DNA of 44,882 nucleotides from Bacillota bacterium (GTDB lineage: Bacteria > Bacillota > Clostridia > Oscillospirales > Oscillospiraceae), in the NCBI GenBank assembly GCA_021768085.1, contig JAETOJ010000021.1, positions 1-44,882 on the forward strand. Reading direction: 5' to 3'. Below are positions 8,236 through 42,640 of the stretch, piece after piece. The translations under genes were made by a program, and so were the position numbers. The notes under the pieces are model-generated. The model was not told the origin of the DNA. It worked only from the letters and a program-made list of their open reading frames with translations, and did no database searches. Within the stretch, counting starts at the first letter, position 1. The number at the start of each line of letters is the position of its first letter.

Positions 8236-8300
8236 ACGACACCTTCCTTTACTCTTTTCTCATGTTCAGCCTGCCGGCTGTCATAGACGTTTCACCGCGC

Positions 8301-9785: not shown

Positions 9786-9797
9786 GGGCACCCTCCC

Positions 9798-10634
9798 TTA
9801 TTCTCCTAAGTACAAGCGAATGATTTCCAGATACTCCTGGGGGTAGAAGCCGATCTCCCCCTGAAACCGGGTGAGGGCGATAAGCCCGCCGTCGATCTCG
9901 TCGATGGAGGCCAGCATGGCAGCGTTGTCCGCCTTCAGGCCGCCTCCGTACACCACGTCCATCCCCCCGGTGCGCTCCTTGACGAAGCGGGCGATCTTGG
10001 TGATGTAGTCCTTGTCCGCCGGGGTCTTGCCCGGGCCGATGGACCAGACGGGTTCGTAGCCGATGACGACCCTGCTCTTGTCCACGCCATCCAGCCCCGC
10101 GTCCAGCTGCTGGCCCAGTACGTCCTCCCACTGGGGCTGCTCCTCGCTGGTTTCGCCGATGCAGTACAGCACCGTCAGCCCCGCGTCCTGGGCGCACTTG
10201 ATCTCCTGGTTCAGCAGGCGGTTGACGGCGCTCATGTCCGTGACCCCCGCCTCCGCCAGGATACCCTTCTTGTCGTTGCGCTCCTCGCAGTGGCCGATGA
10301 GGGTGGACGTACACCCCATGGCCTTGACGATAGAGGCGGGCCGGTTGGTGGTAAAGGCCCCGAAGTTGCCCCCCACCGCCGTGTTCATGCGGTACACGCC
10401 CTGGCTACCGATCTGCACGGGGCTGTTTTCCGCCAGCGCACCCACCGCGCCCAGCAGATGGGCCTCCGGCAGGTATTGCACAAACTCAACCTGGGCAGGA
10501 TCGTACCTGCGCAGCGCCTCCTGGGTACCGTTCACCACCGCCGCGCCCCAGTCCTTCACCGGGGCCAGCCGGTTCACGCCGCCCAGCTCCACGGGCACGT
10601 CGAACCGCTTCAAATTCAAATAGATATGTTTCAT
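9798..10634 (-). CDS. triosephosphate isomerase-family protein (divergent)
   Basis: This 278-residue TIM-barrel isomerase is somewhat longer than usual TpiA (about 250). The catalytic residues are in place: Asn7 and Lys9 (LNLKR), His115 in IGHCEERN, Glu194 in YEPVWSIGPG, and the phosphate loop YGGGL at 229-233. It should interconvert dihydroxyacetone phosphate and glyceraldehyde 3-phosphate, consuming what FBA makes. The N-terminal region and the insert around ENSPVQIGSQGVYRMN are unlike housekeeping TpiA and recall TIM-like isomerases of four-carbon sugar phosphates, so a tetrulose phosphate is an alternative substrate. The start lies 6 nt after the pfk stop. Confidence 0.82.
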   Translation of the reverse strand: MKHIYLNLKRFDVPVELGGVNRLAPVKDWGAAVVNGTQEALRRYDPAQVEFVQYLPEAHLLGAVGALAENSPVQIGSQGVYRMNTAVGGNFGAFTTNRPASIVKAMGCTSTLIGHCEERNDKKGILAEAGVTDMSAVNRLLNQEIKCAQDAGLTVLYCIGETSEEQPQWEDVLGQQLDAGLDGVDKSRVVIGYEPVWSIGPGKTPADKDYITKIARFVKERTGGMDVVYGGGLKADNAAMLASIDEIDGGLIALTRFQGEIGFYPQEYLEIIRLYLGE

Positions 10635-10640
10635 ATTCCG

Positions 10641-11801
10641 TTACCTCAGCAAAGCGTATTCCGGGAACGCGTCCCCCATCAGTGGCATCGCGTAGTCAAA
10701 GAAAGCGTCGGCGATCTGGTTGCCGTCCACGATCCACTCCAGCGGGAACTTCTTCTCCACGTTGGCCACCTTGGCCAGCGGCACCAGGGACAGGCTGCTG
10801 GAATAGGCCGGCGTCCGCACCGCGTCGATGGCCACCATAGAGCCGCTCTCCCCCTTCAGGGCCGCCTCCACCGCGTACTTGCCCACGGCGTAGGCCTCCT
10901 CCCGGTCGGTGGAAGACTGGTAGGGGATGCTGGCCCGCCCCAGGAGCCCCGGCTTCTCCGCCCGGGACTTGAGGCCCAGCTTCCGAATGATCTGATCCGT
11001 GATGTGCTGGGCGGTGCCTCCAGGCACCTTGTGGCCGAAACCGTCCACAATTCCTGTATCCGCCAGGGGTTTGCCGTCCAGGCCGCAGATGCCCTCGCTG
11101 ACGGTCACCAGCAGGCCGCGGCCCTGTGCATAGGCTTTTTCAATGTCGGCCAGCATCTTGTCCTCGTCCACCAAGACCTCCGGCAGATAGGTGAGCACCT
11201 GGCAGTCGGTGAGCCGCGCCGCCATGGCGCTGGCGGCGGTGACCCAGCCCGCGTTGCGGCCCATCAGCTCCAGCACCACCACGTGGATGGGCAGGCCGGA
11301 GGCGTCCAGGGCCAGTTCGGCGGCGCTGAGGGCGGCGTACCGGGCGGCGGAGCCGAAGCCGGGACAGTGATCCGTGAGATCCAGGTCATTGTCCATGGTC
11401 TTGGGGATGCCGATGACCCGCACGTCCAGCCGCTGGGCCTTTGCCAGCTCGTTGACCTTGTTGCAGGTGTCCATGGAGTCGTTGCCGCCATTGTAGAAGA
11501 AATATCCGATGTCAAATTTTTTCAGCGTGTCCATCACCGTGGGATAGTCCGCGTCGGTGAGCTTCCGCCGGCAGGAGCCGATGGCGGAGGCTGGGGTGTG
11601 CCCCAGCTTGGCAATGGTGGCGGCGGGCACGTCGGTGAGGTCGATGAGATCCCCGGCCAGGATGCCCTCCGCCCCGAACCGGGCGGCGTAGATCTTCCCG
11701 TCGAAACCGGCGCTCCGGGCGGACTCCACCACCCCCTGGAGGGAGCCGTTGATGACAGCGGTAGGGCCGCCGCCGTGGGCCACTAAAATATTTTTACCCA
11801 T
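10641..11801 (-). CDS. pyrophosphate-dependent 6-phosphofructokinase
   Basis: This 386-residue PfkA-family enzyme phosphorylates fructose 6-phosphate to the 1,6-bisphosphate. GGGPTAVING at 10-19 is the nucleotide/PPi loop. GGNDS at 105-109 replaces the GGDGS of ATP enzymes, and PKTMDND at 133-139 carries the lysine that marks PPi-dependent members. RNAGWVTA and PGGTAQHITD further down contact the sugar phosphate. It is preceded by GGAGAA 7 nt before the ATG. It connects NagB (fructose 6-phosphate) to FBA in the same operon and saves ATP. The phosphoryl donor is inferred from motifs. Confidence 0.9.
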   Translation of the reverse strand: MGKNILVAHGGGPTAVINGSLQGVVESARSAGFDGKIYAARFGAEGILAGDLIDLTDVPAATIAKLGHTPASAIGSCRRKLTDADYPTVMDTLKKFDIGYFFYNGGNDSMDTCNKVNELAKAQRLDVRVIGIPKTMDNDLDLTDHCPGFGSAARYAALSAAELALDASGLPIHVVVLELMGRNAGWVTAASAMAARLTDCQVLTYLPEVLVDEDKMLADIEKAYAQGRGLLVTVSEGICGLDGKPLADTGIVDGFGHKVPGGTAQHITDQIIRKLGLKSRAEKPGLLGRASIPYQSSTDREEAYAVGKYAVEAALKGESGSMVAIDAVRTPAYSSSLSLVPLAKVANVEKKFPLEWIVDGNQIADAFFDYAMPLMGDAFPEYALLR

Positions 11802-11890
11802 AGTCAGTTCTCCATTTTGTAAATGTGCCGTTACCGGGCGGAAACTTGAAGGACTTGCCTGCGCCCGTCAGCGAATTAAAGTTCTTTTTC

Positions 11891-11920
11891 GGTTCCTTTT
11901 TCTTTCAAGAAAAAGGAACC
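11891..11920. repeat. perfect hairpin between fba and pfk
   Basis: A 14-bp perfect inverted repeat (GGTTCCTTTTTCTT and its complement) with a 2-nt loop starts right after the fba stop codon. On the minus strand it is followed by an A-rich, not T-rich, run, so full termination is unlikely. It may act as an mRNA end protector or partial terminator inside the operon. Next to it, 11836-11874 holds CGGGCG/CGCCCG arms; the whole 11830-11920 block looks like an intergenic repeat, but no second copy is in the window. Confidence 0.6.
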
Positions 11921-11922
11921 AC

Positions 11923-13080
11923 TTAAATGCCCTTCTTCCGATACCGCTCCGCCATCTCGTCCAGGGAGACGTTCTCAATGAGGGGGGCCTTGCCCACGGA
12001 GTCGAACTCCACGATCAGGGTGCCCACGACCTCTTTCACGCCCCGCTCGATGCAGTCCACAATGCGGGCCACGTCCTCGTCGGGCACGATGCCGTACATG
12101 ACGGTATCCATGATGGGCGGGAAGAACACCCGGGGGTCAAAGGCGGAGGGATTGTCCACCAGCAGCTTGTAAATCCCGCCGATGGAGGCGCTGTCCCGCA
12201 AAGCAGCGTTGTCCCGGAACAGCTCCCGCAGGTTGCGGGTCACCGCCAGGCGGATGTCGGTGTCCACGTTGATCTTGCGGATGCCCAGCTTGGACACCTC
12301 TTTGAGCTGCTCCTTCTTGATACCATAGGCGTCATGGATATCGCCGCCCAGGGCGTTGATCTCGCTGACGATGTACTGGGGCACGGTGGACGAGCCGTGG
12401 CTCACCAGGGTGCCCTCGATGCCCTCGTGGAGCATGCACTCCTTGGTGGCAATGGCGATCTCCTTGCGGATAACGGTGTCCTTGCCCTTGTTGGCCCCGT
12501 GCTTGGTGCCGTAGCTGATGGCCAGGGCGTCCACCCCGGTCTGGCGGAAGAACTTCACCGCGTCCATGGGGTTGGTGTAGGTGGAATTGGCGGCAAACAC
12601 GTGGTCCTCCACACCGGCCAGCACGCCCAGCTCGCCCTCCACGGTGACGCCCCGCTCATGGGCGTACTTCACCACCTCCCGGGTGAGCTCCACGTTCTCG
12701 TCGAAGGGAAGGGAGGAGCCGTCGATCATCACCGACGTATAGCCGCCCGCGATGGCAGCCACGCAGGAGTCCATGTTCTTGCCGTGATCCAGGTGGAGCG
12801 CCACCGGGACGGGGCTGTGCTCGGCGTACTTCTTCACCGCATTGGCGATGTTCAGCGCACCCTTCTTCTTGTCCTCCAGGGTGCCCTGGGCAAAATCGGT
12901 CCGGCCGCCCATAAAGGCGTTGGCCAAATCCGCCCCCTGGAGGATGGCGGCGGAGCGGAACATCTCGTGAACCTCGATCACGGCCTTGGCTTGACACACA
13001 GCGTTGACATTGAATGCGCCCTGGGCGTAGTTGTACTTTTCGGTGGCGTCTAAAATGGCCTTCATTGGTACCAGCGGCAT
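11923..13080 (-). CDS. fba: class II fructose-bisphosphate aldolase (long form)
   Basis: This 385-residue zinc-dependent aldolase would cleave fructose 1,6-bisphosphate to DHAP and GAP. HLDHG at 96-100 gives the catalytic Asp98 and zinc His99. GELG at 149-152, His194 (YGTKHG), His228 (VSHGSS) and the NVDTD loop at 271-275 complete zinc, potassium and phosphate sites. It is about 100 residues longer than the E. coli GatY/KbaY type because of inserts and a C-terminal extension. ATG 13080 is chosen because AAGGAAGGG lies 5-6 nt upstream; an in-frame GTG at 13104 lies on the far side of that site. It is the first gene of the operon, after a structured leader. Confidence 0.92.
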   Translation of the reverse strand: MPLVPMKAILDATEKYNYAQGAFNVNAVCQAKAVIEVHEMFRSAAILQGADLANAFMGGRTDFAQGTLEDKKKGALNIANAVKKYAEHSPVPVALHLDHGKNMDSCVAAIAGGYTSVMIDGSSLPFDENVELTREVVKYAHERGVTVEGELGVLAGVEDHVFAANSTYTNPMDAVKFFRQTGVDALAISYGTKHGANKGKDTVIRKEIAIATKECMLHEGIEGTLVSHGSSTVPQYIVSEINALGGDIHDAYGIKKEQLKEVSKLGIRKINVDTDIRLAVTRNLRELFRDNAALRDSASIGGIYKLLVDNPSAFDPRVFFPPIMDTVMYGIVPDEDVARIVDCIERGVKEVVGTLIVEFDSVGKAPLIENVSLDEMAERYRKKGI

Positions 13081-13119
13081 ATTGACCCTTCCTTTCTTGT
13101 CCACGGAACAGCTCGGTTA

Positions 13120-13219
13120 CAATAAAAAGAGGCTGTCTGCCGCTTACAGCGGCAGACGGGGGACTCCCTCTGTCTTGCGCTGCCCTGTGGGAAAACAGGG
13201 CTTCGCGTCTCCGTGCATA
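13120..13219 (-). promoter_or_regulatory. structured leader with candidate attenuator before fba
   Basis: On the minus strand a first hairpin (arms CCCTGT/ACAGGG, 13183-13200) is followed by a perfect 10-bp hairpin (arms GTCTGCCGCT/AGCGGCAGAC, 3-nt loop, 13135-13157). A T-rich run (CTCTTTTTATT) comes after it, about 45 nt before the fba ATG. The segment between the hairpins (CAGCGCAAGAC, about 13171-13182) can pair 9 of 11 bases with the 5' arm of the terminator, giving a possible antiterminator. I do not recognise a known riboswitch class. Confidence 0.5.
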
Positions 13220-13225
13220 TCACTA

Positions 13226-13254
13226 ATATTAACACATTTACAGGTCTGTGTCCA
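13226..13254 (-). promoter_or_regulatory. sigma-A promoter for the fba-kdgK operon
   Basis: The -35 TGGACA (13249-13254) and -10 TAATAT (13226-13231) are separated by exactly 17 nt on the minus strand. They lie in an AT-rich island about 140 nt upstream of the fba start. No other convincing promoter was seen down to the left edge, so this likely drives the whole operon. Confidence 0.65.
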
Positions 13255-13330
13255 TTCTTTTTTTGTAGAAGATTACCGTAACCCATGCGGTAGCCCCGCC
13301 TTTCCACCTCCCTCCACAAGAGGAGAGGAC

Positions 13331-13640
13331 CCCCTCCGTTTTCTTCAAGCCTATTTTTTGGCCCCCTGATATTTCTTGCAAACAGGGCTGGATGGTAGAG
13401 CCTTCCTGATCACCAAGTCGGGGGGCAGATATGCAAATACTTCGGTATCTCCAAGCACAACCCTATGCAGCTACATTGAGGAAACCAGAAATTCCGCAAA
13501 ATCAAGGCAAACGCTGGCCGTCAAAATCCGGTCCCGGTTTTTGTGGAGATTTCGCAAAAGTTTGCCTATCAAACAAAAAGCCCGGAAATAACAGCGCCGC
13601 CGGACCTTCCCGCCCACAGGCGAGATGATCCGGCGCGCCG
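13331..13640 (+). pseudogene. deleted remnant of the YheO-type regulator locus
   Basis: Three blocks match the functional locus in the same order and direction: 13331-13397 matches 39718-39786 (ssnA/regulator intergenic DNA up to the -10), 13399-13500 matches 40363-40464 (last 34 codons of the regulator), and 13502-13640 matches 42098-42245 (the repeat downstream of ridA). About 576 nt and about 1.63 kb are missing between the blocks. The coding block has lost one G in the run after TKSGG, so its frame shifts, and the promoter -10 is gone. No function is expected. Confidence 0.8.
13517..13640. repeat. structured intergenic repeat, copy 1
   Basis: This copy is about 85% identical by eye to 42120-42245. 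It has three potential stems: AAAATCCGG/CCGGTTTTT, GTTTG/CAAAC around a 5-nt loop (13560-13574), and a GC-rich stem starting GCGCCGCCGGA (13594) and closing with TCCGGCG near 13635. The GTTTG/CAAAC arms are kept while the loop differs between copies. On the minus strand it follows the DUF5107 gene by about 130 nt. The 13641-13766 stretch up to that gene shows nothing I can name. Confidence 0.7.
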
Positions 13641-13766
13641 CCCTTTTTACTTTTTCATTCCGTCTTATGGATCATATAAAGGAGACGGTGTGGGTGGAAA
13701 AGCGCAGTGGTGCGCCCATTCGCCGACACCTTCAGGTTGCCCCGGTGATCTCCCGCCGCCTGGGCC

Positions 13767-16700
13767 TTATACGCACATCTTCCGATAGCGGATGGCATTT
13801 TGATGGGTTTGCTCCAGTCGAACCGTCTCGTCAAAAGCCTCTGCCGCCTCATCGGGCTGACCCAGTCCCAGCCGGGCCAGGCCAATGAGATAATGGCAAT
13901 GGGCCTGGTTCTTTTTGTCCAGGTCGTCGTCAAAAATCAGAAAGTCCGGCAGAGATACCGCAAAATAACTCACCCGCATATGGTCGAACATATGCCGCTC
14001 ACCATAGTCCAACAGCTTATTGAACCGGGCCTTGGCCTCCACCGGCCTGCCCAACTTCTCCAGCGCCAGGCCCTGGTAATAGATCATGTCGGCGGGCTGG
14101 TCGTTGTAGTACATCATCCCAGCGGGTTCATCGGTGCCCACGCAGGCCAGCTCGAAACACACCTGGGCCCCCGACCGATCGCCCAGCTGCTCCTTCACCA
14201 CCCCCAGATAGTAATTCACATGGTTGTCCTTGGTGCCCTCCAGCTTACCCTCGCCCAGGTTCTCCGGGTAGGACGCCGTGCGCAGCAGATAGTCCTCCGC
14301 CTGTTCCCAGCGGCCCTCGGCCATGGCCTCCCGGGCCAGCTCCACCAGGGCGGTGGTGTACTGGCCGGTCACCTTGCCCTCGCCGCCCTCCCAGGGATGG
14401 AAGCGGTGGGCCATGATGAACTCATAGGCCTCCCCATAACGTCCCAGCAGGTTGAGCAGGGTGGCATACTCGATTTTCAGATCGTCCCGCCTCAGAAATA
14501 CCTCCCGATTTGCCTCATACCGGGCCAGCCGCTCCTCCACGGGCATTTTTAGCCTCTTGTGCAACTGGTCCAGCTCCAGGAACACCCGGGCATCCTGCGG
14601 GGCCAGTGCCCAGGCCCGCTCCATGGCCTCCTGGGCCGCCTGACTGTCATGGCGCTTGTTGTAGTAGGCCAGGGACAGGTTCCGCCAGACGGTGGGGAAT
14701 TGCGGATCCAGTTGGGCGGATCGCGCCCAATTTTCCATGGCAGCGTCATATTGCAGCTTGTCATACAGCAGGCAGCCCAGATAGTAACAGGCCTTGGCGG
14801 GCTTTTCGGTATGCTCTTTGGCATACTCCAGCACAACCAGATCCTCCAGCTTGTTGGGGAAGCAGTAGTCGGCGGGGCAGCCCTCTGCCTGAGCCAACGC
14901 CGGTCTGCTGTCCGCCCCCAGCCTTTCCTGGTAGTACGCCTTGTAATAGGACAGCATGGGCCAGGGCTTTTTGCACAGCTCCAGGGCGTCAACCGCTTCG
15001 GCGTAAGCGCCGAACTGAGCGTAATCCCGGGCGATACGCAGCCAGGTCTCGTGGAAGTCCCGGGCCAGCGCCCTGACCGCCTCCCCCCCTTCGCCCCCCA
15101 GCCGGGACAGCTCCAGCCGGGACAGGTAGTCGAAGGGATCAATGGTAAGGCTCTCCTCGATCCACGCCCGGGCCTGCTCCTCCCGGCCCAGCTTCCGCAG
15201 GAGATAGGCCTTCAGCCCTCGGGCCTTGACGTTGTGCCAATTCTTTACCAGCCCCTTGTCCACCAGCGCCAGGGCGCTGGCAAAACTGTTTCGCTCTGCC
15301 TCAATGCAGCTCAGATAGTAGAAGCTCATCTCCTGCTGCTCGCTGGACCAGGTGGCCTTGTAGAAGGCGTCGAAGGCCTCGTCCAACTTTTCCTGGTAGA
15401 ATAGCGCCAGCCCCAGGTTGTAATAGGGCTCGGAGTCGTAGGGGTTGGGGTTCCTCCAGGTACACCGCTTCAGCGCCCTACGGAAATATGTCTCCGCCTG
15501 GGCAAACTGCCCCCGGCGCAGCAGCAGCGAGCCATAGGCGTTATTGAGCCGGATGTCCCCCGGGTCCCGCTTCAGCCCCTCCAGGTAGTAGGGATCCGGG
15601 CGGTAGGTAGCATGGCGGTACTGCTCAATGTGCAGGCCGGTGAGGTAGAGCTCCTCGCAGGTCATGATCTCCTCCGGATCCTTGGCCGCCTGGGCAGGCT
15701 CAGGGAGCTTGGGGATCTCCCGCTTCAGTGGGGTGTAGGCCACCAGCTCCCTTGTCCCGTCCAGCACCTTCAGGGTCAGCCCGGTCTCGTCCTCTACTGC
15801 GCAGGGCACCGTCTTTTGATAGGTCTGTACGGGGGACAGCGCCGTCTCCTCGTCCAGTAGCACCTTGTCGCCATAAATGAGCTGAATCCGGGCATGGGGA
15901 TGCTCCCCGCTGGTGTAGGCCGTCACCGTCACGCCCTCCAGGCTGGTCTCCAAGTTCACCGCCGCGTCGATGGTGGCGTTTTTCACCGCCCCCACCGCCT
16001 TGTAGGGCAAGAAATACTGGGTAAAGGTTTTTTCCTCAAAGGGCTTGAGCCAGGTGAAATCGGGCTGGTTGTCGGTGTATACCCCGGTCATCAGCTCCAC
16101 ATAGGGGCCGTCCTCGTCGGTGAGGTTCCGATCCCAGGCCCTCCCGAAATCGCCACAGCCCCAGGTCCACTGCTTTTTGCCCGGGGAGATGTGGTGATCT
16201 GCCACGTGGAGGATACCCGCCTGCCTGCCGTAATCGTAGCCACCCACAAAATCAAAGTCACTTTTCTCCGCCATGTAGGAGGTGGGCACGGGGATATTCC
16301 TATACCGGGAGATGTCCACCCCCGCGCTGTAATCGTGCTTATAGTACTCCCCTGTGGCAATGGGGAACCGGGACACGTCCCGCTTGCCGTGATCCATCAC
16401 CGCGTGGACATCAGGGGGAAAGATGGACTGGGTGTTCTCGTTCACCGGGACGGCGGGATTGGCCCACCACAGGAAGGTCTGAGGCAGGGGTGTGGGGTTG
16501 TAAAGCTGGCCCTTGATCTCAATGTACGCCTTGCCGGGGTACAAGGTAAAGCTGGCCTCCCCCCGGGTGCCATACATCTGGTCTACATCGGATACCCGGC
16601 AGGTCTTGGAACCGTCCGGGTTTTCAATGAGCAGATAATCCACCGGAGAATAGGTGGTGGGGCGGTGATGCTGGGGCCAGTTGAACTCGATGCCGCCGCT

Positions 16701-17033
16701 GATCCAGGGCCCGCACAGCCCCACCAGCGCGGGCTTGATGACATGGTTGTAGTACACGAAGTCGTAGTCATTGGTCTTGTCATAGGCCCGCTGGATGCGT
16801 CCGCCCAGCTCGGGCAGGATCATCACCTTCAAATACTCGTTCTCCAACCACACCGCCTGATACTCCTTGTCCGTCTTTACGTCGGACACCGACTCAATGG
16901 TGGGATAGGGGTACACCTTCCCGGAGCTGCCCTGGTATACTCGGCCCTCCAGAAACATGGGGTTTTTGTCCGCCTCACCGATCTCATAGGTGGGAAGCAC
17001 GATGCGCTCCTCCCAGATCTTCACGTTGTTCAT
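13767..17033 (-). CDS. DUF5107 protein with C-terminal TPR repeats
   Basis: This cytoplasmic protein has 1088 residues and no signal peptide. Residues 1 to about 420 form a DUF5107 domain, a beta-sandwich related to galactose mutarotase-like carbohydrate domains, with LKVMILPELGGRI, ISGGIEFNWPQHH and QFLWWANPAVPVNE-type aromatic motifs. From about residue 500 on are many tetratricopeptide-like repeats (for example NPYDSEPYYNLGLALFYQEK and PQFPTVWRNLSLAYYNK). The function is unknown; related proteins sit in sugar-use loci. The start at 17033 is favoured over an upstream in-frame ATG at 17102 because AAGGAGG lies 8 nt before it and a promoter overlaps the upstream codons. It is divergent from an AraC regulator, which probably controls it. 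Confidence 0.85.
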   Translation of the reverse strand: MNNVKIWEERIVLPTYEIGEADKNPMFLEGRVYQGSSGKVYPYPTIESVSDVKTDKEYQAVWLENEYLKVMILPELGGRIQRAYDKTNDYDFVYYNHVIKPALVGLCGPWISGGIEFNWPQHHRPTTYSPVDYLLIENPDGSKTCRVSDVDQMYGTRGEASFTLYPGKAYIEIKGQLYNPTPLPQTFLWWANPAVPVNENTQSIFPPDVHAVMDHGKRDVSRFPIATGEYYKHDYSAGVDISRYRNIPVPTSYMAEKSDFDFVGGYDYGRQAGILHVADHHISPGKKQWTWGCGDFGRAWDRNLTDEDGPYVELMTGVYTDNQPDFTWLKPFEEKTFTQYFLPYKAVGAVKNATIDAAVNLETSLEGVTVTAYTSGEHPHARIQLIYGDKVLLDEETALSPVQTYQKTVPCAVEDETGLTLKVLDGTRELVAYTPLKREIPKLPEPAQAAKDPEEIMTCEELYLTGLHIEQYRHATYRPDPYYLEGLKRDPGDIRLNNAYGSLLLRRGQFAQAETYFRRALKRCTWRNPNPYDSEPYYNLGLALFYQEKLDEAFDAFYKATWSSEQQEMSFYYLSCIEAERNSFASALALVDKGLVKNWHNVKARGLKAYLLRKLGREEQARAWIEESLTIDPFDYLSRLELSRLGGEGGEAVRALARDFHETWLRIARDYAQFGAYAEAVDALELCKKPWPMLSYYKAYYQERLGADSRPALAQAEGCPADYCFPNKLEDLVVLEYAKEHTEKPAKACYYLGCLLYDKLQYDAAMENWARSAQLDPQFPTVWRNLSLAYYNKRHDSQAAQEAMERAWALAPQDARVFLELDQLHKRLKMPVEERLARYEANREVFLRRDDLKIEYATLLNLLGRYGEAYEFIMAHRFHPWEGGEGKVTGQYTTALVELAREAMAEGRWEQAEDYLLRTASYPENLGEGKLEGTKDNHVNYYLGVVKEQLGDRSGAQVCFELACVGTDEPAGMMYYNDQPADMIYYQGLALEKLGRPVEAKARFNKLLDYGERHMFDHMRVSYFAVSLPDFLIFDDDLDKKNQAHCHYLIGLARLGLGQPDEAAEAFDETVRLEQTHQNAIRYRKMCV

Positions 17034-17073
17034 CCCTAACGCCTCCTTGATTTTGCGGTTCCGCATTGATAAG

Positions 17074-17102
17074 AGCATAGCCTGTTTCATTTGATTTTTC
17101 AA
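17074..17102 (-). promoter_or_regulatory. promoter for the DUF5107 gene
   Basis: TTGAAA (17097-17102) and TATGCT (17074-17079) are spaced 17 nt on the minus strand, 41 nt before the start codon. The direct repeats at 17110-17145 lie just upstream of the -35, a position suited to AraC-type activation. Confidence 0.65.
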
Positions 17103-17109
17103 TTTCTAC

Positions 17110-17145
17110 AGTTGCCATGTCATTTTGAAAAGTTGCTCTCATTTT
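17110..17145. promoter_or_regulatory. 21-bp-spaced direct repeats, candidate AraC operator
   Basis: AGTTGC occurs at 17110-17115 and again at 17131-17136, each followed by TCATTTT (17120-17126 and 17139-17145). The 21-bp period places both on the same helix face, as in AraC-family operators. They sit between the divergent promoters. Confidence 0.6.
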
Positions 17146-17146
17146 C

Positions 17147-17175
17147 TTGACGAAAGGCGGCCTTCTCTATATAAT
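17147..17175 (+). promoter_or_regulatory. promoter for the AraC-type regulator
   Basis: TTGACG (17147-17152), a 17-nt spacer, and a perfect TATAAT (17170-17175). The start codon is 34 nt further on, with a GGAGG site between. Confidence 0.75.
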
Positions 17176-17208
17176 AAAATTTGCTATAAGCAAACGGAGG
17201 GTGTCCAT

Positions 17209-18060
17209 ATGCTGTCCACAGAAGCCCTTGTTTCCCCGGGTTCTGATTACTACATCTATACGCCCAGCGCCCAGGCTCAGGATCTGTTCCTCTGCCCACT
17301 TATTGTGGGCCATTTTCAATACTTGCCCGGCTATTGCCTGCGCAGATCCTCCCTGGACAGCTTTCTCGTCATGCACGTCATCCGGGGCTGCTGCGAGGTG
17401 GACTGGGGTGGGCGGCAATTCCGCGCCCGGGAGGGACAGGTGGCGGTGCTGGACTGCTACGCCCCCCACGCCTACCACACCGCCGACGGTTGGGATGCGG
17501 AGTGGCTCCACTTTGACGGACCCTGTGCCCGGGGCTATTTTGACGCCATCACAGGCGGGGACAGCCCGGTGATCACGCTGAAGAACAGCTACCGTTTTGA
17601 GAAGAACCTGCACCAAATCTACGCCCAGTTCCGGGACGCCGCCCCCGTCCGGGAGGCCGTGCTCAACAACTACATCGTGAACCTTCTCACTGAGCTGCTG
17701 GTGAGCCGTGAGGGGGCCAACCCCAGCAGCCAGTCCGCCGGCATCGTTGAGGACAGCATCGCCTACATCAACGACCACCTGGCCCAGGCGCTCCCGCTGG
17801 AGGAACTGGCCGCCCGGGCGGCGCTGAGCCCCTTTTATTTCAGCCGCCTGTTCAAAAACGAGACCGGCTTCTCTCCCCACCGATATATCCTCGCCACCCG
17901 GATCAGCAACGCGAAATTCCTGCTCCAGAGTACCGGCGATTCTGTGAAAAGCATTTGTTTCGCCGTGGGCTTTTCCAGTGAGAGCAGCTTCTGCACCGCC
18001 TTTAAAAAGGAGACGGGGGTGACTCCCACGGAGTACCGGGCGCGGGCGCTGGAACCATAA
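17209..18060 (+). CDS. AraC-family transcriptional regulator
   Basis: This is a 283-residue regulator. The N-terminal cupin-like sensor domain (about 1-150) contains the usual RxFxAREGQVAVLDCYAPHAY-like turn and a WLHFDG strand, typical for sugar-sensing members. The C-terminal AraC DNA-binding domain (about 180-280) has both helix-turn-helix units: LEELAARAALSPFYFSRLFK and VKSICFAVGFSSESSFCTAF. The ATG at 17209 follows CGGAGGGTG by 7 nt; earlier in-frame codons would overlap the -10. It is divergent from the DUF5107 gene and likely activates it in response to a carbohydrate. Confidence 0.93.
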   Translation: MLSTEALVSPGSDYYIYTPSAQAQDLFLCPLIVGHFQYLPGYCLRRSSLDSFLVMHVIRGCCEVDWGGRQFRAREGQVAVLDCYAPHAYHTADGWDAEWLHFDGPCARGYFDAITGGDSPVITLKNSYRFEKNLHQIYAQFRDAAPVREAVLNNYIVNLLTELLVSREGANPSSQSAGIVEDSIAYINDHLAQALPLEELAARAALSPFYFSRLFKNETGFSPHRYILATRISNAKFLLQSTGDSVKSICFAVGFSSESSFCTAFKKETGVTPTEYRARALEP

Positions 18061-35349: not shown

Positions 35350-38340
35350 TCAGCCCAGCAGATAGTTGTAATTCTCATACACGGCACAGATCAGGCGGCG
35401 CAGGCCGTCCTCCAGCCCGCAGCCGGGGTCGGACACGTCATACTCCTTCACCCCGCCGGCAAGCCGCACCAGGGTCTTGTACCCGTCCAGGCGCAGGAAG
35501 CCCTGGTTCTCGCTGTGGTCGAAGTCCTCCCTGAGCCAGAACAGGGTGAACTTGTCCTTGTAGGGGGCGCTGTCGTAGGGACAGAACACCGCGCAGTTGC
35601 CGCACTCGTTGCACATGCCGTCCACGTGGACGATCTGCCGCTGGCGCATCCCCTCCACCCGGATAGCCACGTTGGCCCGGTTGGGGCACACCTCAGTGCA
35701 GGTCTCGCATACGGTGGCGCAGCCCAGGCAGCGGATCTCCCCACAGGCGGCACAGTCGGCGCACACGTTCCCCCGCTTGGCCAGGGGGACGGCGTAGTCG
35801 GGATTGATATTCCGCTCCACAAAGGCGTCCGCGTCGAAATCCTGGATGGCCCGGGCGGCCTTCATGGCCCCGGCGATGGCCTCCACCACCGTGGCGGGGC
35901 CGGTCTGGCCGTCGCCCACCACGTAAATTCCCTCCACGCTGGACTCCATCGTCTCCCAGTTTACCACAGCCCTGCCCCGGTTGTCTACTGCCAGCCCGTT
36001 GGCGGTATACAGGGCAGTGTCCACCTTCTCGCCCACGGCGGTGATGACGGTGTCGGCGGGCAGCTCCACCGTTTTCCCGGTGTCCACCGGGGAGCGGCGG
36101 CCGCTGGCGTCGGGGGCGCCCAGCTCCATCACCCGGCAGGTGAGCACGCCGTCCTTCGCCCCCACGGGAGCCAGCAGCTCCCGGAACTCCACGCCGTCGG
36201 CCAGAGCCAGCTCCAGCTCCTCCTGGTCGGCGGGCATATACCGTTTCGTGCGGCGGTATACCAGGGACACCCGCTTCACACCGGGGAGGCGCTTGGCCGC
36301 CCGGGCGGCGTCCATGGCGGTGTTGCCGCCGCCGATGACGGCAACGTTTTCCCCCAGCTCCAAGGTCTCGGGCGACTTCTTGGCCGCCTCCAGGAAGGCC
36401 AGCACGTTGAACTCCTGGCCGTACTCCATTCCGGCGGAGCCCCGCTTCCAGGCGCCCGCTGCCACGATCACATGGGTGAACTCGTTTCGCAGGGCCCGGA
36501 GATCGCCGACCCGGGTGTTCAGCTTTACCTTCACCCCCATGGCCTCCATCAGCTTCACGTCGTTGTCGATGGCCTCGCTGCTAATGCGGAACTCCGGGAT
36601 CACGTGGCGGACGATGCCGCCCAGGGCGTCTTTGGCCTCAAAGAGGGTCACGTCCACCCCGGCCCGGCCCAGGAAGAAGGCCGCCGCCATGCCCGCGGGG
36701 CCGCCGCCTACGATGGCCGCCCGCTTGCCCACCGGAGCCCCTGGCTTCAGCCTGGGCAGGAGGGAGGCAAAGCCACCCTGGGCCGCCTTCAGCTTCTGAG
36801 CGCGGATGTAGACGCTGTCGTCATAGGCGTTCCTCATGCACTTGTCCTGACAGCGGTGGGAGCAGATGGTGCCGGTGATGAAGGGCAGAGGGTTGCGCCG
36901 GGTGATGATGTCCAGGGCCTGCTCGTATTTGCCGGCATTCACCGCCATCAGGTAGGCGGGGATGTCCTGCCCGATGGGGCAGCCCGACCGGCAGGGAGCC
37001 TGGAAGCAGTCCAGCAGTGGCACCTGTTTGTCCGTCTTGCGGCTGGGGATGGGCTTGACGGGCTTGCGCCAGTGGGGATCAGCGGGGATGGTGTCCACCA
37101 GAGCAGACACCTTCGCGCTGTCCACGCCCTGCCATGCTTCATAGCGGATATCCGTCAGCAGGCCGGCGATCTGGCTGAACCGCTGATAGCCGCCGGGCTT
37201 GAGCACGGTGGTGGCCATGGTGACGGGCCAGATGCCCGCGTCGAACAGGCCCCGGATGGAGGCGGCGTCCGCCCCGCCGGAGTAGGAGATGCGCAGCTTG
37301 CCATCAAACTCCTTGGCCAGCATCCCCGCCAGCGACAGGGACAGGGGGTACAGGGAGCGCCCGGACATATACATCTCGCTGGAGGGCAGCTCCCCCGCCG
37401 CCACATCCACCGGGAAGGTGTTGGTGAGCTTCACGCCGAACTCCAGCCCTCGCTCGGCGCACAGGGCCTGGAGCCGGTGGAACATGGGCACCGCGTCCGC
37501 CCATTGCAGATCCTCTACAAAGTGGTGATCGTCGAACACGATGTAGTCGTAGCCCAGGCCGTCCAGGGTCTTGCGGGCGAAGTCGTAGCCCAGCAGGGTG
37601 GGGTTGCACTTCACGTAGGTGTTCAGGCCCTTTTCCGTGATGAGGTAGGTGGCGATGCGCTCGATCTCGTCAGGGGGACAGCCGTGGAGGGTGGACTCGG
37701 TGATGGAGGCGGACACCCGGGGGGAGACGGACTTCACATAGCCCGCGTCCACCTGCTCGAAACGCCCCAGGTTGGCCAGGGACCAGTCCAGGCACTCCCT
37801 CCAGGCCTGGCTATTAGAGGCGTCCTTCATGCCCTCGATGTATTTGTCGATCTTTTCGCTCTGGATCCCCGCCAGATCGTAGCCCACCGACATATTGAAC
37901 ACAAAGCCGTCGGGATCGCCCAGGCCCAGCTCCTTGGCCAGCAACTTGCAGGCCCACCAGGCCTTGACGTATTCCCCATACGCCTGGGGCACGGTGAGCT
38001 CGGTGGACCACTCACAGTTGTAGCACTCGTCCCCGGCGGTGATGCAGGGCTTGTTGACGCACTTGGACAGCTCCTCGCCGTCCATAATCTGGACGGTTTT
38101 CAGCTCGAAGAAGCGGGCTCCGGCGGCGTAGGCCGCGACGATGTTCTGGGCCAGCTGGGTGTGGGGGCCGGCGGCGGGGCCAAAGGGGGTTTCGATTTTC
38201 TCCTTGAAGATGGGCAGGGCCTTGTCCCCGGTGCACTTCACCAGCTTGGATACGCCGAAGATGCTGCCTTGATTCTTATGTTCGGTGAGCACCCAGTCCA
38301 TCAGCTGGGCAAAGGACATGGGCCGCATGATGTCGCTCAT
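35350..38340 (-). CDS. ygfK: YgfK multidomain flavin/iron-sulfur oxidoreductase
   Basis: This is a 996-residue protein. The first 400 residues form a dihydroorotate-dehydrogenase-like barrel. A GltD-type segment follows, with CFQAPCRSGCPIGQDIP, the FAD loop GKRAAIVGGGPAGMAAA, the NAD(P)H loop ENVAVIGGGNTAMDAA, and VEGIYVVGDGQTGPATVVEA. The C-terminal 150 residues carry ferredoxin-like cysteine runs (CADCAACGEIRCLGCATVC and CNECGNCAVFCPYD). It is often labelled a putative selenate reductase subunit, but comparative work ties YgfK to anaerobic purine catabolism. It could exchange electrons between NADPH and XdhD or reduce a purine-derived ring. It starts 31 nt after ssnA ends, with AGGAGG. Confidence 0.93.
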   Translation of the reverse strand: MSDIMRPMSFAQLMDWVLTEHKNQGSIFGVSKLVKCTGDKALPIFKEKIETPFGPAAGPHTQLAQNIVAAYAAGARFFELKTVQIMDGEELSKCVNKPCITAGDECYNCEWSTELTVPQAYGEYVKAWWACKLLAKELGLGDPDGFVFNMSVGYDLAGIQSEKIDKYIEGMKDASNSQAWRECLDWSLANLGRFEQVDAGYVKSVSPRVSASITESTLHGCPPDEIERIATYLITEKGLNTYVKCNPTLLGYDFARKTLDGLGYDYIVFDDHHFVEDLQWADAVPMFHRLQALCAERGLEFGVKLTNTFPVDVAAGELPSSEMYMSGRSLYPLSLSLAGMLAKEFDGKLRISYSGGADAASIRGLFDAGIWPVTMATTVLKPGGYQRFSQIAGLLTDIRYEAWQGVDSAKVSALVDTIPADPHWRKPVKPIPSRKTDKQVPLLDCFQAPCRSGCPIGQDIPAYLMAVNAGKYEQALDIITRRNPLPFITGTICSHRCQDKCMRNAYDDSVYIRAQKLKAAQGGFASLLPRLKPGAPVGKRAAIVGGGPAGMAAAFFLGRAGVDVTLFEAKDALGGIVRHVIPEFRISSEAIDNDVKLMEAMGVKVKLNTRVGDLRALRNEFTHVIVAAGAWKRGSAGMEYGQEFNVLAFLEAAKKSPETLELGENVAVIGGGNTAMDAARAAKRLPGVKRVSLVYRRTKRYMPADQEELELALADGVEFRELLAPVGAKDGVLTCRVMELGAPDASGRRSPVDTGKTVELPADTVITAVGEKVDTALYTANGLAVDNRGRAVVNWETMESSVEGIYVVGDGQTGPATVVEAIAGAMKAARAIQDFDADAFVERNINPDYAVPLAKRGNVCADCAACGEIRCLGCATVCETCTEVCPNRANVAIRVEGMRQRQIVHVDGMCNECGNCAVFCPYDSAPYKDKFTLFWLREDFDHSENQGFLRLDGYKTLVRLAGGVKEYDVSDPGCGLEDGLRRLICAVYENYNYLLG

Positions 38341-38371: not shown

Positions 38372-39712
38372 TTAATACGTTCTGTGGTTTAATTCGCCCC
38401 ACAATTTCTTCGCCTGCTCCAGCGTCCAGGCGTTGATCTTGTCCTCGTCGATGCCTACGAACTCCCGGTCTTGATACAGCACCTTGCCATTGATGACGGT
38501 GGTGCGGCAGTTCTTGCCCATCATGCCGAACAGCATATGGCCGTCGATGTTGTCCGCCCCGAAGGGGGTGAAGGGCTTATAGTCCATGACGATCACGTCC
38601 GCCGCCGCTCCGGGCTCCAGCACCCCCAAGGGCTTTTTGAAGTACCGGGCGCAGATAGCCGGGTTGTTGTGGAACAGCATCCCCATGGCCTCGCCCCAGC
38701 CCACATTGGGATCGCAGGCGTTGTGGCGCTGCATGGGCAGCAGAACCTTCAGGCTCTCCAGCATATCGTGGGTGTAGGCGTCGGTACCCAGGCCGATCAA
38801 AATGCCCTTTTCATACAGCTTCAGCACCGGGGAGCAGCCCACCGCATTGCCCATGTTGGATTCTGGGTTGTGGCACACCATGGTGCCCGTCTCCCTGATG
38901 ATGTCCATCTCCGCCGGGGAGATGTGGATACAGTGGCCCAGCATAGTTTTCTCCCCCAGGAGGCCGTTGTAGAGCAGGCGATTCACCGGGCGACAGCCGT
39001 AATTGTTCAGGGAGTCGTACACGTCGTTCATGCCCTCGGCCACATGGATGTGAAAGCCGGTCATGCCGTCGTTGGCCTTCACCATCTCCTCGAAGGTCTT
39101 GTCGGAGATGGTAAATAGGGCGTGGCCGCCGAACATGGCCTTGATCATATCGTTGTTCTCGTGTTTGGCCCAACGGGCAAAGTCGGCGTTCTCCCGGATG
39201 GATTGGGCGCACTTTTCTGCACCGTCCCGCTCGGACACCTCGTAGCACAGGCAGGCCCGCATCCCCAGCTCCTGGCACACGTCCTTGATGGCAAACAGGG
39301 AGCCGGGGATCTCCCCAAAGCTGGCATGGTGGTCAAAGATGGTGGTCACCCCGTCCCGGATGCAGTCCAGCACGGTGGCGTAGGCGCAGGCCCGGGTGCC
39401 ATCCAGGGTGAGGTGTCGGTCGATGTTCCACCACTGGCCGTCCAGCACCTCCAGGAAGCTGGTGGGGGCAAAGCCGTCAATGGCCAGGCCCCGGGCCAGG
39501 CCGCTGTAAATGTGGGTGTGGACGTTGATGAGGCCCGGCATGATGACCCCGCCCTGGGCGTCCACAAACTCTGCGCCCGGGTATTGGGCCCGCATGGCCT
39601 TTCGGGTTCCAGTCTCCTTGACGGTATCGCCGTCCAGCACCACCGCACCGTCCTCCAGATAGGGGTTGGTGCTGCTCCGGGTGATGAGTCTTCCGTTGCC
39701 GATGATCAGCAT
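38372..39712 (-). CDS. ssnA: SsnA-type amidohydrolase (guanine deaminase/atrazine hydrolase superfamily)
   Basis: This 446-residue metal-dependent hydrolase has the HTH metal pair at 65-67 (INVHTHIYSGLARG), FDHHAS near 144-149, GFHIHVAEG with a metal histidine near 232-240, LGHCIHIS near 269-276 and the metal aspartate in GLGTDAY near 320. The substrate of SsnA is not firmly known; linkage to ygfK and xdhD in many anaerobes points to deamination or ring opening of a purine product. Start 39712 has GGAGGG 6 nt upstream; the longer frame would enter the regulator promoter. It heads the ssnA-ABC operon and is divergent from the regulator. Confidence 0.92.
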   Translation of the reverse strand: MLIIGNGRLITRSSTNPYLEDGAVVLDGDTVKETGTRKAMRAQYPGAEFVDAQGGVIMPGLINVHTHIYSGLARGLAIDGFAPTSFLEVLDGQWWNIDRHLTLDGTRACAYATVLDCIRDGVTTIFDHHASFGEIPGSLFAIKDVCQELGMRACLCYEVSERDGAEKCAQSIRENADFARWAKHENNDMIKAMFGGHALFTISDKTFEEMVKANDGMTGFHIHVAEGMNDVYDSLNNYGCRPVNRLLYNGLLGEKTMLGHCIHISPAEMDIIRETGTMVCHNPESNMGNAVGCSPVLKLYEKGILIGLGTDAYTHDMLESLKVLLPMQRHNACDPNVGWGEAMGMLFHNNPAICARYFKKPLGVLEPGAAADVIVMDYKPFTPFGADNIDGHMLFGMMGKNCRTTVINGKVLYQDREFVGIDEDKINAWTLEQAKKLWGELNHRTY

Positions 39713-39763
39713 GGGTCTCCCTCCGTTTTTCTTCAAACTTATTTTTTGGCCCCCTGATAATTC

Positions 39764-39792
39764 TTGCAAACGGGGCGGGATGGTGGTATACT
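39764..39792 (+). promoter_or_regulatory. promoter of the YheO-type regulator
   Basis: TTGCAA (39764-39769), a 17-nt spacer and TATACT (39787-39792) lie 35 nt before the start codon. The opposite-strand promoter of ssnA must lie within the same 114-nt gap but is not clear. Confidence 0.75.
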
Positions 39793-39826: not shown

Positions 39827-40468
39827 ATGGATGCGTCCATGCTTGAATTCCTGTTCCGCTTAGCAAAGGCCCTGGCCGCCCAGTTCGGGCCCAGCTGCGA
39901 GATCGTCATACACGACCTGAAATCCAACGACCCGGACAGCTCCATTGTCGCCATCGAGAACGGCCACGTCTCCGGGCGTAAGGTGGGGGATGGACCCTCC
40001 CATGTGGTGCTGGAGGCGCTGAACAGCGGCGGCACAGCGGAGGATCGGCTGAGTTACCTGGCAAAAACCGCCGACGGCAAAACGCTGAAATCCACCACTG
40101 TCTATATCCGGGATCAGGATCAGGAGCCCATCGGGATCTTCTCCATCAACTATGATATCACTCTGATGCTGGCCATGGAGGAGAGCCTGCGGCAATTCAC
40201 CGCCCCCAAGCAGCCGGAGGAGGCCCCGGAGCCCATCGCCCAGAACGTGTCCGACCTGCTGGACGAGCTGATCGAGCAGAGCGTGCGCCGGGTGGGCAAG
40301 CCCGCCACCCTTATGACCAAGGAGGAGAAGGTGAAGGCCATCGGATTCCTCAATGACACGGGGGCCTTCTTGATCACCAAGTCGGGGGGGCGGGTGTGCA
40401 AATACTTCGGCATCTCCAAGTATACCCTATACAGCTACATTGAGGAAGCCAAAAATTCCGCGAAATAA
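39827..40468 (+). CDS. YheO-type PAS/helix-turn-helix regulator
   Basis: This is a 213-residue regulator. The N-terminal PAS-like YheO domain (about 5-115) shows FGPSCEIVIHDL and GIFSINYDIT. The C-terminal helix-turn-helix domain (about 150-212) shows KVKAIGFLNDTGAFLITKSG and YFGISKYTLYSYIEEAK. GAGGTGG lies 6 nt before the ATG, and the start falls right after a good promoter. Being divergent from ssnA and inside the purine island, it is the best candidate controller of the island. A truncated relic copy is at 13331-13640. Its stop codon abuts a MITE-like element. Confidence 0.9.
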   Translation: MDASMLEFLFRLAKALAAQFGPSCEIVIHDLKSNDPDSSIVAIENGHVSGRKVGDGPSHVVLEALNSGGTAEDRLSYLAKTADGKTLKSTTVYIRDQDQEPIGIFSINYDITLMLAMEESLRQFTAPKQPEEAPEPIAQNVSDLLDELIEQSVRRVGKPATLMTKEEKVKAIGFLNDTGAFLITKSGGRVCKYFGISKYTLYSYIEEAKNSAK

Positions 40469-40629: not shown

Positions 40630-40675
40630 AAGGGCGGACGCCGGGCCGGTGAAACCATCGGCCCGGCTTTTCCGT

Positions 40676-42019
40676 CTACGATTTGGACTTGGCGGCCCCG
40701 TCCTTGGGCAGCAGCAGGTTCAGCAGGATTGCCACGATAGCGGTGACTACGATGGGGGAGGCGCCGAACACAGTATGTACCCAGGCGGGGAAGCCAGGGC
40801 CTTGGAGGGAGCCGGCCACCTGGGTGATTCCCACGCCCAGGGCCACCGACAGCCCCACCACCGCGCTGGAGCGCATGGTGAAGTGCTCGGCAGTGATCAT
40901 GCGGATACCGGTCATGGTGATGGTGGCGAATACGGAGATGTTGGCTCCGCCGATGACCGCCTGGGGAATGGTGGTGAGAATGGCAGACAGCTTAGGCACC
41001 AGCCCCGCCACCAGCAGCACCAGGGAGGCAAAGGCAAACACCGCCTTGTTGATCACCTTGTTCACGGTGACAATGCCCACATTCTGGCTGTAGGTGGCGG
41101 CGGGCAGGCCGCCGAACAGGGCTCCCACAATGGACACCAACCCTTGGGCCACAATGCCGCCGGACAGCTCCCGGTCGGTGGGCATACGATCCATGCCGCC
41201 CATGGTGGTGGAGGACAGATCACCGATGGTCTGCACCGCATTGATGATGTAAACCACCGCCAGGGAAATGCAGGCGCTGGCCTCAAATTTCACGCCGAAG
41301 TGGAGGGGGGCTGCCAGCTGGAACCAGCCTGCCGGGGCCACGGCGGAGAAGTCCACCATCCCCAGACACAGGGCCATGATATAGCCCACGATCATGCCCC
41401 AAAGGATGGCTCCCAGCTTCAGCACGCCCTTGCCGAAGTTCTGGAGGAGTACCACCACCGCCAGGGTCACCAGGGCCACCGCCCAGTTCTTCAGGCCGCC
41501 GAACTCGGCGCTGCCCGCGCCGCCGGCCATGTACCGCACCGCCGTGGGATACAGGGACAGGCCGATGGTGAAGATGACGGTGCCGGTGATGAGGGGCGGG
41601 AACAGCTTCCTGATCTGCTTGACGAAAATGCCGAACAGAATGGCCACGCAACCGCCCACGATCTCCGCACCCAAAATGGTGGGCAGGTCGAACTGGCCGC
41701 CGATGGCCAGCAGGGTGGGCACGTAGGCAAAGCTGATGCCCATCACCACAGGCAGGCCGGAGCCGATGCGGTGCTTGATGGTATAGAGCTGGAGCAGGGT
41801 GGCCAGGGCGGTGACAATGAGAGAGACCTGAATCAGCAGGGTGCGGTCGGCGTCGGGCAAGGCGCAGGTGTTGGACACCATGATCGCCGGGGTGATGATA
41901 CCCACGATGGCGGCAACCACGTGCTGAAGGCCCAGCGGGATAAGCTGGCCAGGCGCGGGAACACCGTCCAGGGAGAAGACGGAGGCCGGGGTCTTGGAGT
42001 CCGGTTTGGACTGCTGCAT
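40676..42019 (-). CDS. xanthine/uracil permease family (NCS2) transporter
   Basis: This 447-residue membrane protein has about 12-14 transmembrane segments. The LGLQHVVAAIVG motif with Gln32-His33 corresponds to the QH motif of XanQ/UraA, and YSQNVGIVTVNKV later is the NCS2 signature near the substrate site. VMGISFAYVPTLLAIGG and FPPLITGTVIFTIGLSL are typical too. It should import xanthine, urate or a related purine by proton symport. AGGAGG lies 8 nt before the ATG. It follows ridA after a 246-nt gap holding the structured repeat. Confidence 0.92.
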   Translation of the reverse strand: MQQSKPDSKTPASVFSLDGVPAPGQLIPLGLQHVVAAIVGIITPAIMVSNTCALPDADRTLLIQVSLIVTALATLLQLYTIKHRIGSGLPVVMGISFAYVPTLLAIGGQFDLPTILGAEIVGGCVAILFGIFVKQIRKLFPPLITGTVIFTIGLSLYPTAVRYMAGGAGSAEFGGLKNWAVALVTLAVVVLLQNFGKGVLKLGAILWGMIVGYIMALCLGMVDFSAVAPAGWFQLAAPLHFGVKFEASACISLAVVYIINAVQTIGDLSSTTMGGMDRMPTDRELSGGIVAQGLVSIVGALFGGLPAATYSQNVGIVTVNKVINKAVFAFASLVLLVAGLVPKLSAILTTIPQAVIGGANISVFATITMTGIRMITAEHFTMRSSAVVGLSVALGVGITQVAGSLQGPGFPAWVHTVFGASPIVVTAIVAILLNLLLPKDGAAKSKS

Positions 42020-42119
42020 GCGGGATTCCTCCTTACTTTTTTTAAGCTAAAAAAAATTTATTTCATGTTCTGAGTATAGCCCATTTTTTCCGGGATTTCA
42101 AGGAAGAAAACCGCGCCGG

Positions 42120-42245
42120 GCCGCCAAAATCCGGCCCCGGTTTTTGTGGAGATTTCACAAAAAGTTTGTCCATCAAACAAAAAGTCAGGGAACAACAGCG
42201 CCGCCGGACCACCCCACCCACAGGCGGGATGATCCGGCGGTGTCG
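42120..42245. repeat. structured intergenic repeat, copy 2
   Basis: This second copy of the element at 13517-13640 lies between ridA and the permease gene. The GTTTG/CAAAC stem (42164-42178) and the GC-rich stem opening with GCGCCGCCGGA are kept, with different loop bases. The rest of the gap (42020-42119) is AT-rich leader DNA in front of the permease. Confidence 0.7.
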
Positions 42246-42265: not shown

Positions 42266-42640
42266 TTATTTGACGGCTATGGCCTCGATCTCAAACAGCG
42301 CCCCCTTGGGCAGGGCGGCCACCTGCACACAGGAGCGGGCCGGCGCCTCACCAGGGAAGTATTTGGCATAGATGGCGTTAATGGCGGCAAAATCCCCCAT
42401 GTCCGCCAGAAACACCGTGGTTTTCACCACGTCCCCGCAGGTCATCCCTGCGGCGGCCAGCACAGCGGACAGGTTGTCCAGGGCCTGGGTGGCCTGGGCC
42501 TCCACCCCTTGGGGCAGTTCACCGGTGGCGGGGATCAGGCCCAGCTGACCCGAGGTATACAGGGTGTTCCCTGCCAGCTTGGCATGGCAGTATGGCCCCA
42601 CAGCGGCAGGGGCGTTGGACGCGGTAATAGTCTGGTTCAT
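42266..42640 (-). CDS. ridA: RidA-family enamine/imine deaminase
   Basis: This 124-residue YjgF/YER057c/UK114 protein carries Arg102 in APARSCVQVAALPKG and Glu117 in LFEIEA, matching Arg105 and Glu120 of E. coli RidA, and GPYCHAKLAGNTLYTSGQLG near 15-34. It hydrolyses 2-aminoacrylate and other imines released by PLP enzymes; here the obvious source is DpaL. AGGAGG lies 8 nt before the ATG. It is the first gene before the purine permease. Confidence 0.93.
   Translation of the reverse strand: MNQTITASNAPAAVGPYCHAKLAGNTLYTSGQLGLIPATGELPQGVEAQATQALDNLSAVLAAAGMTCGDVVKTTVFLADMGDFAAINAIYAKYFPGEAPARSCVQVAALPKGALFEIEAIAVK

Follow-up and report, generated by a model that had tools for sequence, protein, structure and literature searches.

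The window, meaning the whole 44,882-nucleotide stretch of DNA that was analysed, carries between an aldolase gene and a TPR-protein gene a short relic whose intact counterpart lies in a purine gene cluster further along the same stretch. When positions 13100-13900 were used as a blastn query against the whole window (E ≤ 0.01), exactly three plus-strand matches in consistent order were obtained besides the self-match. The relic, at 13332-13635, consists of three collinear plus-strand blocks with 88-91% identity to the copy in the intact cluster. Specifically, block 1 (13332-13396) aligns with 39719-39784 (60/66 positions, 91%, E = 4e-20), block 2 (13400-13502) with 40364-40466 (91/104, 88%, E = 6e-30), and block 3 (13516-13635) with 42119-42239 (107/121, 88%, E = 4e-39). 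No further copy of the relic region was found at E ≤ 0.01 in the window's own assembly (2,937,561 bases in 110 contigs). This genome is called G000 below, and G010 denotes the nearest relative found (MAG S26_Bin1, JAETQF010000008.1, locus L001).

The features at and around the relic are:

11923..13104, minus strand: fba, class II fructose-bisphosphate aldolase family (Pfam PF01116), the left flank; collinear in G010
13332..13396, plus strand: relic block 1, ssnA/regulator intergenic sequence with a remnant of the regulator promoter; aligns with the intact promoter region of the G010 site copy
13400..13502, plus strand: relic block 2, the last ~103 nt of a regulator pseudogene; 88% to 40364-40466
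13503..13521, plus strand: junction of the putative permease deletion, common to the G010 copy; AATCAAGGCAAACGCTGGCCGTC versus AATAAGGGCGGACGCCGGGCCGTC in G010
13516..13635, plus strand: relic block 3, from between permease and RidA on the 3′ side of RidA, with a long minus-strand hairpin; 88% to 42119-42239
13636..13750, no strand: spacer at the place where G010 has RidA and its promoter
13767..17102, minus strand: gene for a DUF5107 + TPR protein (Pfam), the right flank; collinear in G010

Those of the intact purine cluster are:

35350..38340, minus strand: ygfK gene (an antisense open reading frame spans 35296-38436)
38372..39712, minus strand: SsnA gene
39719..39784, plus strand: intact counterpart of block 1, with TTGCAA at 39764-39769, then 17 nt, and TATACT at 39787-39792 just beyond
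39827..40468, plus strand: intact YheO-like regulator with PAS_6 and HTH_22 domains (Pfam), 213 aa from ATG 39827
40639..40648, plus strand: left copy of CGCCGGGCCG, a 10-bp repeat marking the junction of the permease deletion
40676..42019, minus strand: NCS2 nucleobase permease, PbuX-like (NCBIfam: below the pbuX cut-off, above that of ncs2), probably deleted from the copy
42114..42123, plus strand: right copy of the same repeat
42119..42239, plus strand: intact counterpart of block 3 (blastn)
42266..42640, minus strand: intact RidA family gene (Pfam), gone from the relic

No similarity to the spacer at 13636-13750 was found in the window or in the loci compared with it.

The relic carries several lesions. 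Block 2 has no start, its stop codon is lost and its reading frame is destroyed; where the original prediction saw a one-base frameshift, there is a compensating pair of indels, one base lost in the G run at 13420-13425 and one gained near 13457-13459. The lost -10 box of that prediction is real: the first deletion begins after 13396, so TATACT has no counterpart in the relic, and the -35-like TTGCAA is retained at 13376-13381. Three blocks in the same order and direction had also been claimed, and the similarities (E from 4e-20 to 4e-39) are indeed far above chance, but the claimed start of the third match at 42098 had to be moved to about 42114-42119 once the G010 copy at the second junction was used as a guide. 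The relic sequence that precedes block 3, AATCAAGGCAAACGCTGGCCGTC, begins at the stop codon of the regulator, carries on into what lies downstream of that gene, and is followed by block 3 at the 42114 repeat, which sets this start. The first deletion is 579 bp long (39785-40363) when measured from the ends of the blastn matches, and the second is 1475 bp when measured from the start of one CGCCGGGCCG repeat to the start of the other.

To the left of ssnA in the intact cluster lie genes of the YgfK, selenium-dependent XDH, YgeX, YgeY, YgeW, amino-acid kinase and hydantoinase types. Matches above the NCBIfam cut-off were obtained for the Se_dep_XDH, Se_ygfK, Se_ssnA, D-hydantoinase, ygeW, YgeY and diaminopropionate ammonia-lyase models, and genes of the XdhD, YgfK, SsnA, HyuA, YgeW, YgeY and YgeX types occur together in this cluster. 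The listed open reading frame of the regulator starts at TTG 39764; the start at ATG 39827 was read from the sequence. Its gene position, and only that, points to a probable role of the PAS_6/HTH_22 protein in regulating purine use.

Gene order was surveyed in the 46 best regulator loci (L001-L046, from 80 retained out of 99, mostly Oscillospiraceae-type records), a gene being counted as present only when its match covered at least half of it. SsnA stands beside the regulator in 41 of these 46 loci, with a gap of up to ~650 bp. As for the others, in L015 and L017 the regulator is within 540 bases of the contig start, L010 has the permease and lacks ssnA within 6.6 kb, and in L001 and L005 the regulator is at another place. 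The permease starts less than 200 bp downstream of the regulator in 34 of the 46, which is the state of the window's relatives that lack an inserted element, and 1.5 kb from it in L016; in 11 of the 46, L001 and L005 included, no permease of the cluster's kind was found adjoining the regulator. Because ssnA is so often beside the regulator and the permease so often close downstream, the ssnA-regulator-permease order of the window is the common one and probably old.

Just past the regulator stop codon, positions 40466-40632 form a MITE-like stretch of 167 bp with inverted ends (AGAACCTGTATT...), apparently flanked by TA. Two more near-full copies and one pair of fragments are present in the same genome, and there are 14 matches in G038. 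The stretch is absent at the corresponding place from the relic and from both G010 copies, so its insertion was probably a later event. On the far side of RidA, a candidate cis-regulatory RNA is found at 42846-42893 on the plus strand, matching the Rfam ssnA RNA (RF03031; 46.7 bits, E = 9e-10). It is followed by a hairpin with a T-run (~42883-42919, located by eye) and by a DUF6198 open reading frame (ATG 42937), not by ssnA; the stretch is kept in the cluster of G010, which matches 42769-43011.

The window and G010 are collinear to either side of the relic, over 3358-13396 (94%) to the left and 13751-18056 (90%) to the right, the two genomes differing at ~12% of fourfold-degenerate sites. By alignment, the fba-TPR site of G010 holds an intact copy of what the relic once was, at 102996-104358 of a 116711-base contig. 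A regulator region matching 39723-40469 (95%) is followed by six bases and then by block 3, RidA and its promoter (matching 42114-42723, 89%). The encoded regulator is 98% identical over the 217 residues searched and the RidA protein 97% identical, both without stops, and the permease is absent from this site. The purine cluster of G010, on another contig, is collinear with the window and retains an intact permease. There, 25 bases separate the ssnA side (to 39753) from the permease side (from 40630), about the last 28 nt of the regulator remaining (GAGGAAGCCAA...; ~3562-3588 in a contig of 21354 bases), and RidA is cut to 45 nt matching 42416-42460, ~1.9 kb from the contig end. The scars in the two genomes are reciprocal: each genome has a single regulator of working length and a single RidA, the places being opposite in the two, plus the debris of the other copy.

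The right-flank DUF5107/TPR gene may be broken in G010, where it is represented by two match pieces (L001 11377-14166 and G010:C16:107049-107729), one of them with an in-frame TGA.

The relic and the G010 copy share both site and junction. The same derived site, fba-[copy]-TPR, is occupied in G000 and G010; among the 7 genomes of the genus that carry the TPR gene (E ≤ 1e-100), fba adjoins it in these two only, and no empty fba-TPR junction was found. Likewise, a genome with both copies intact was found nowhere among the 42 of the genus. In both copies the end of the regulator leads into its downstream sequence and then into block 3 at CGCCGGGCCG. This repeat has two hits in window positions 39000-43000 (40639 and 42114) and one in the G010 copy; in the relic's version one base is lost and others are changed. 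Just after the junction, relic and G010 copy read GGCCGTC, and the five other aligned sequences, from the intact locus of the window and the clusters of G010, G038, G023 and G039, read GGCCGCC, a shared C-to-T change. Two further features in which the relic departs from the intact blocks and agrees with G010, GATATTTC in block 1 and CTTCCTGAT in block 2, were not counted, as they look ancestral.

We consider it very probable that the relic is a non-functional remnant of a second copy of one end of a uric-acid (purine) utilisation cluster, that with regulator, permease and RidA, left by a duplication of ~3 kb, loss of the permease from the copy, and opposite losses in two sister lineages. In the ancestor shared by G000 and G010, probably after the split from G038, the segment from 39718 to ~42723 would have been copied into the gap that separates fba from the DUF5107/TPR gene. 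The permease would then have been lost from the copy by deletion between the 10-bp direct repeats CGCCGGGCCG, leaving regulator, block 3 and RidA. From that state, in which both copies would have coexisted, G010 would have dropped the old regulator and RidA in favour of the new pair. In the window's lineage the old pair would have survived while the new copy decayed, its regulator losing 579 bp, its RidA disappearing, and small indels and substitutions accumulating.

This history supports the segmental duplication of the regulator-permease-block 3 region that had been predicted, and extends it, on the evidence of G010, to RidA. The suggestion that the purine island was once larger or had moved is not supported, since only the regulator/RidA end was copied (and, in G010, in effect relocated) and the intact arrangement is in place and probably old. 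Of the full second copy to be sought in relatives, part was found, G010 having an intact regulator and RidA at the site and no permease. The "repeat" said to belong to the duplicated region exists at 40466-40632; it is the MITE-like stretch missing from the relic and both G010 copies.

On its left, the copied segment has no sharp boundary. No direct repeat of at least 10 nt was found in 13280-13800, and no transposase among the window proteins searched. Near its ends, the G010 copy carries imperfect direct repeats of 17 nt, the donor version being TTATTTTTTG at 39739 and 42714. A transposition or circle mechanism using these ends was set aside, as homology extends ~20 nt past the left repeat, and the match at an AT-rich promoter edge is ordinary; the G038 contig with permease and RidA also stops matching at 42723. 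A permease-free ancestral state, under which the relic would have had no second deletion, was rejected, both because ssnA-regulator-permease is the common gene order in relatives and because the junction falls at the 10-bp repeat that flanks the permease on either side.

The same relic and the same G010 scars would be expected if regulator and RidA had moved to the fba site already in the ancestor, as in G010, and the window's lineage had regained the cluster copy by recombination from a donor strain with the ancestral arrangement, its site copy decaying afterwards. The copies have diverged as much as the species have, so that long coexistence of the two is not demonstrated, which suits such a regain. 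Yet regulator, RidA and permease of the window are all closest to those of G010 among the sequences compared, and the ssnA-side flank at 39714-39753 is identical to the G010 cluster over 40 nt, with no sign of a foreign donor. A regain also costs one extra event, and we judge it improbable.

Still less credit is due to the idea that the site received the segment twice, independently, the window's relic coming from one duplication and the intact G010 copy from the other. Over blocks 2 and 3 the relic is 79% identical to the G010 copy and 88% identical to the intact locus, so a single duplication needs independent fast drift on both site branches, and the 10-bp repeats could let the same permease deletion recur. 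Block 3 of the G010 copy shows such drift (109/144 identical to the intact sequence), as expected with the permease that it formerly served gone from the site. Against a repeated insertion stand the identical fba-TPR position, the shared junction and the shared C-to-T change; the other moved regulator-RidA pair, in G039, differs in place, junction and cluster scar. It is equally hard to credit an artefact, of assembly or of binning, in either genome. Both are drafts, each the one genome of its species in the comparison (G000 in 110 contigs and 90.58% complete; G010, a MAG, 82% complete), but the relic has its own substitutions and indels and hence is not a copied read, and the site copy and regulator scar of G010 lie inside the 116711- and 21354-base contigs at the positions given above.

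A single duplication followed by opposite losses can be placed in time with the surviving genes. In FastTree trees, G000 groups with the G010 site copy for the regulator (11 sequences, support 1.00) and for RidA (10 sequences, 0.993), and with the G010 cluster for the permease (12 sequences, 0.999). The RidA of G038, the gene adjoining its permease, falls outside the G000/G010 site pair (0.966), and the duplication was therefore probably later than the G038 split. The regulator was not found in the G038 assembly, so this dating comes from RidA. The regulator may have been lost in G038, but the contigs of this genome break inside ssnA and beside the permease, so the region may simply be unassembled. 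In the regulator and RidA copies that survive, 23 of 177 fourfold-degenerate sites differ (regulator from ATG 39827: 11 of 102), compared with 472 of 3954 in 16 non-duplicated genes (p = 0.64). Such similar rates indicate that the copies separated at about the time of the species' split. The duplication would then be not measurably older than the split of G000 and G010, or the copies may have been kept alike until then.

Changes private to one sequence are unevenly distributed between the relic and the intact locus, with 8 versus 2 in block 1 (66 columns, three sequences), 8 versus 2 in block 2 (99 columns, four sequences) and 4 versus 1 in the front of block 3 (78 columns). This excess in the relic reflects relaxed constraint. 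A functional remnant is nevertheless conceivable, in which the hairpin of block 3 survived through a new role in ending the DUF5107/TPR transcripts. The relic hairpin lies ~130 nt past the end of the TPR gene, on that gene's strand (formerly RidA's), and still folds, with a minus-strand z of -3.99 versus -4.78 for the intact one. Of its 17 pairs with letters on both sides 16 hold, the odd one being unpaired in 4 of 5 sequences, and unlike in blocks 1 and 2 the relic is no richer here in private changes than the intact sequence (2 and 2 in 42 columns). However, 2 relic-only changes in 42 columns are not significantly fewer than 12 in 177 for block 2 and the front of block 3 (p = 1.0), and covariation is no better than in shuffles, 113 of 500 of which reach it. 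Moreover, the T-run begins ~14 nt after the stem, and a terminator scan that allows up to 2 nt from stem to T-run did not report this hairpin. Neither rates nor pair counts give significant support for selection on the hairpin as a terminator, and we think a retained function of this kind unlikely. The relic looks neutral, with no good evidence of any activity.

Divergent resolution, or reciprocal loss, of gene duplicates is an established concept; in the portions of the literature consulted, most of its documented cases come from whole-genome duplications of yeasts, Paramecium, plants and fish. The present case is alike in that one duplication is followed by loss of opposite copies in two lineages, and a gene changes its address without a transposition event in either descendant. 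It is unlike the known cases in that the segment is bacterial and small (~3 kb) and both scars are still readable. A limited literature search, covering its sources in part, found no close bacterial precedent for such reciprocal loss or relocation, which is not proof of absence. Bacterial pseudogenes can arise by deletions at short direct repeats, and the relic resembles them in its large deletions, lost start and stop, indels and raised substitution rate; it differs in that the nearest relative found still has a working orthologue at exactly this site. The relic itself and the process are ordinary; what is clean is the record.

Liu et al. and Kasahara et al. are cited in the account of the reductive uric acid cluster. 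That account describes a gene cluster for reductive uric acid degradation in anaerobic bacteria (PMC12507026). The intact donor resembles it in standing at the end of genes of the XdhD, YgfK, SsnA, HyuA, YgeW, YgeY and YgeX types, and differs in having the YheO-like regulator and RidA as accessories; a term search of the main text of PMC12507026 returned 0 occurrences of "RidA" and "regulator". The case is one of a bacterial regulator that changes its chromosomal address with no mobile element recognised, through copying, trimming at a repeat and opposite losses. It also cautions that regulators taken as "orthologous" between sister gut bacteria may, by position, be paralogues. In a uric-acid cluster, regulator and RidA can part from the catabolic genes, which bears on predictions of how urate use is regulated in the gut.

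In the genus, a full-length regulator without stops is encoded in 10 of 42 genomes (E ≤ 1e-30). Among the nine of these other than G015 (regulator identity 57%), it lies between ssnA and the permease in seven, the window's included. In G010 and G039 it is together with RidA, away from the ssnA-permease place. The regulator/RidA end of the cluster may be repeatedly copied and pruned, which is the boldest reading that we would retain. On this view, regulator and RidA might form a portable control module of the genus's uric-acid clusters that has left the ssnA-permease end at least twice, free of the permease; we hold this to be possible and rather doubtful. If true, the pathway is common to sister species that carry regulator and RidA in different places, possibly under different control, and the relic is one footprint of module traffic. 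A family-wide search for relics, in 250 genomes sampled from a larger family with only the best 2 candidates per genome scored, revealed no second relic; outside the window's own genome the matches were to block 2 only (query 68-159).

In G039 (contig C8, loci L110/L111), the regulator-RidA pair is found ~7.6 kb past the opposite end of the purine cluster, and the permease has stayed beside ssnA. The G039 move, independent of the one seen in G000 and G010, has its own place, its own terminator-like hairpin and its own cluster scar. Reading it as the same event as that in G010 was rejected, as neighbours, junction and cluster scar all differ. Another relic is present in G021 (L232, G021:C42, positions 5779-5931), on a different contig from the purine cluster of that genome; it joins a piece of the permease (41803-41881, 89%) to a piece of the RidA promoter (42652-42725, 81%). 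In G013, RidA is found without the neighbouring genes of the purine cluster. Finally, the pfk-fba intergenic sequence at 11876-11919 recurs elsewhere in relatives, for example with 44/44 identical positions at L110 17065-17108.
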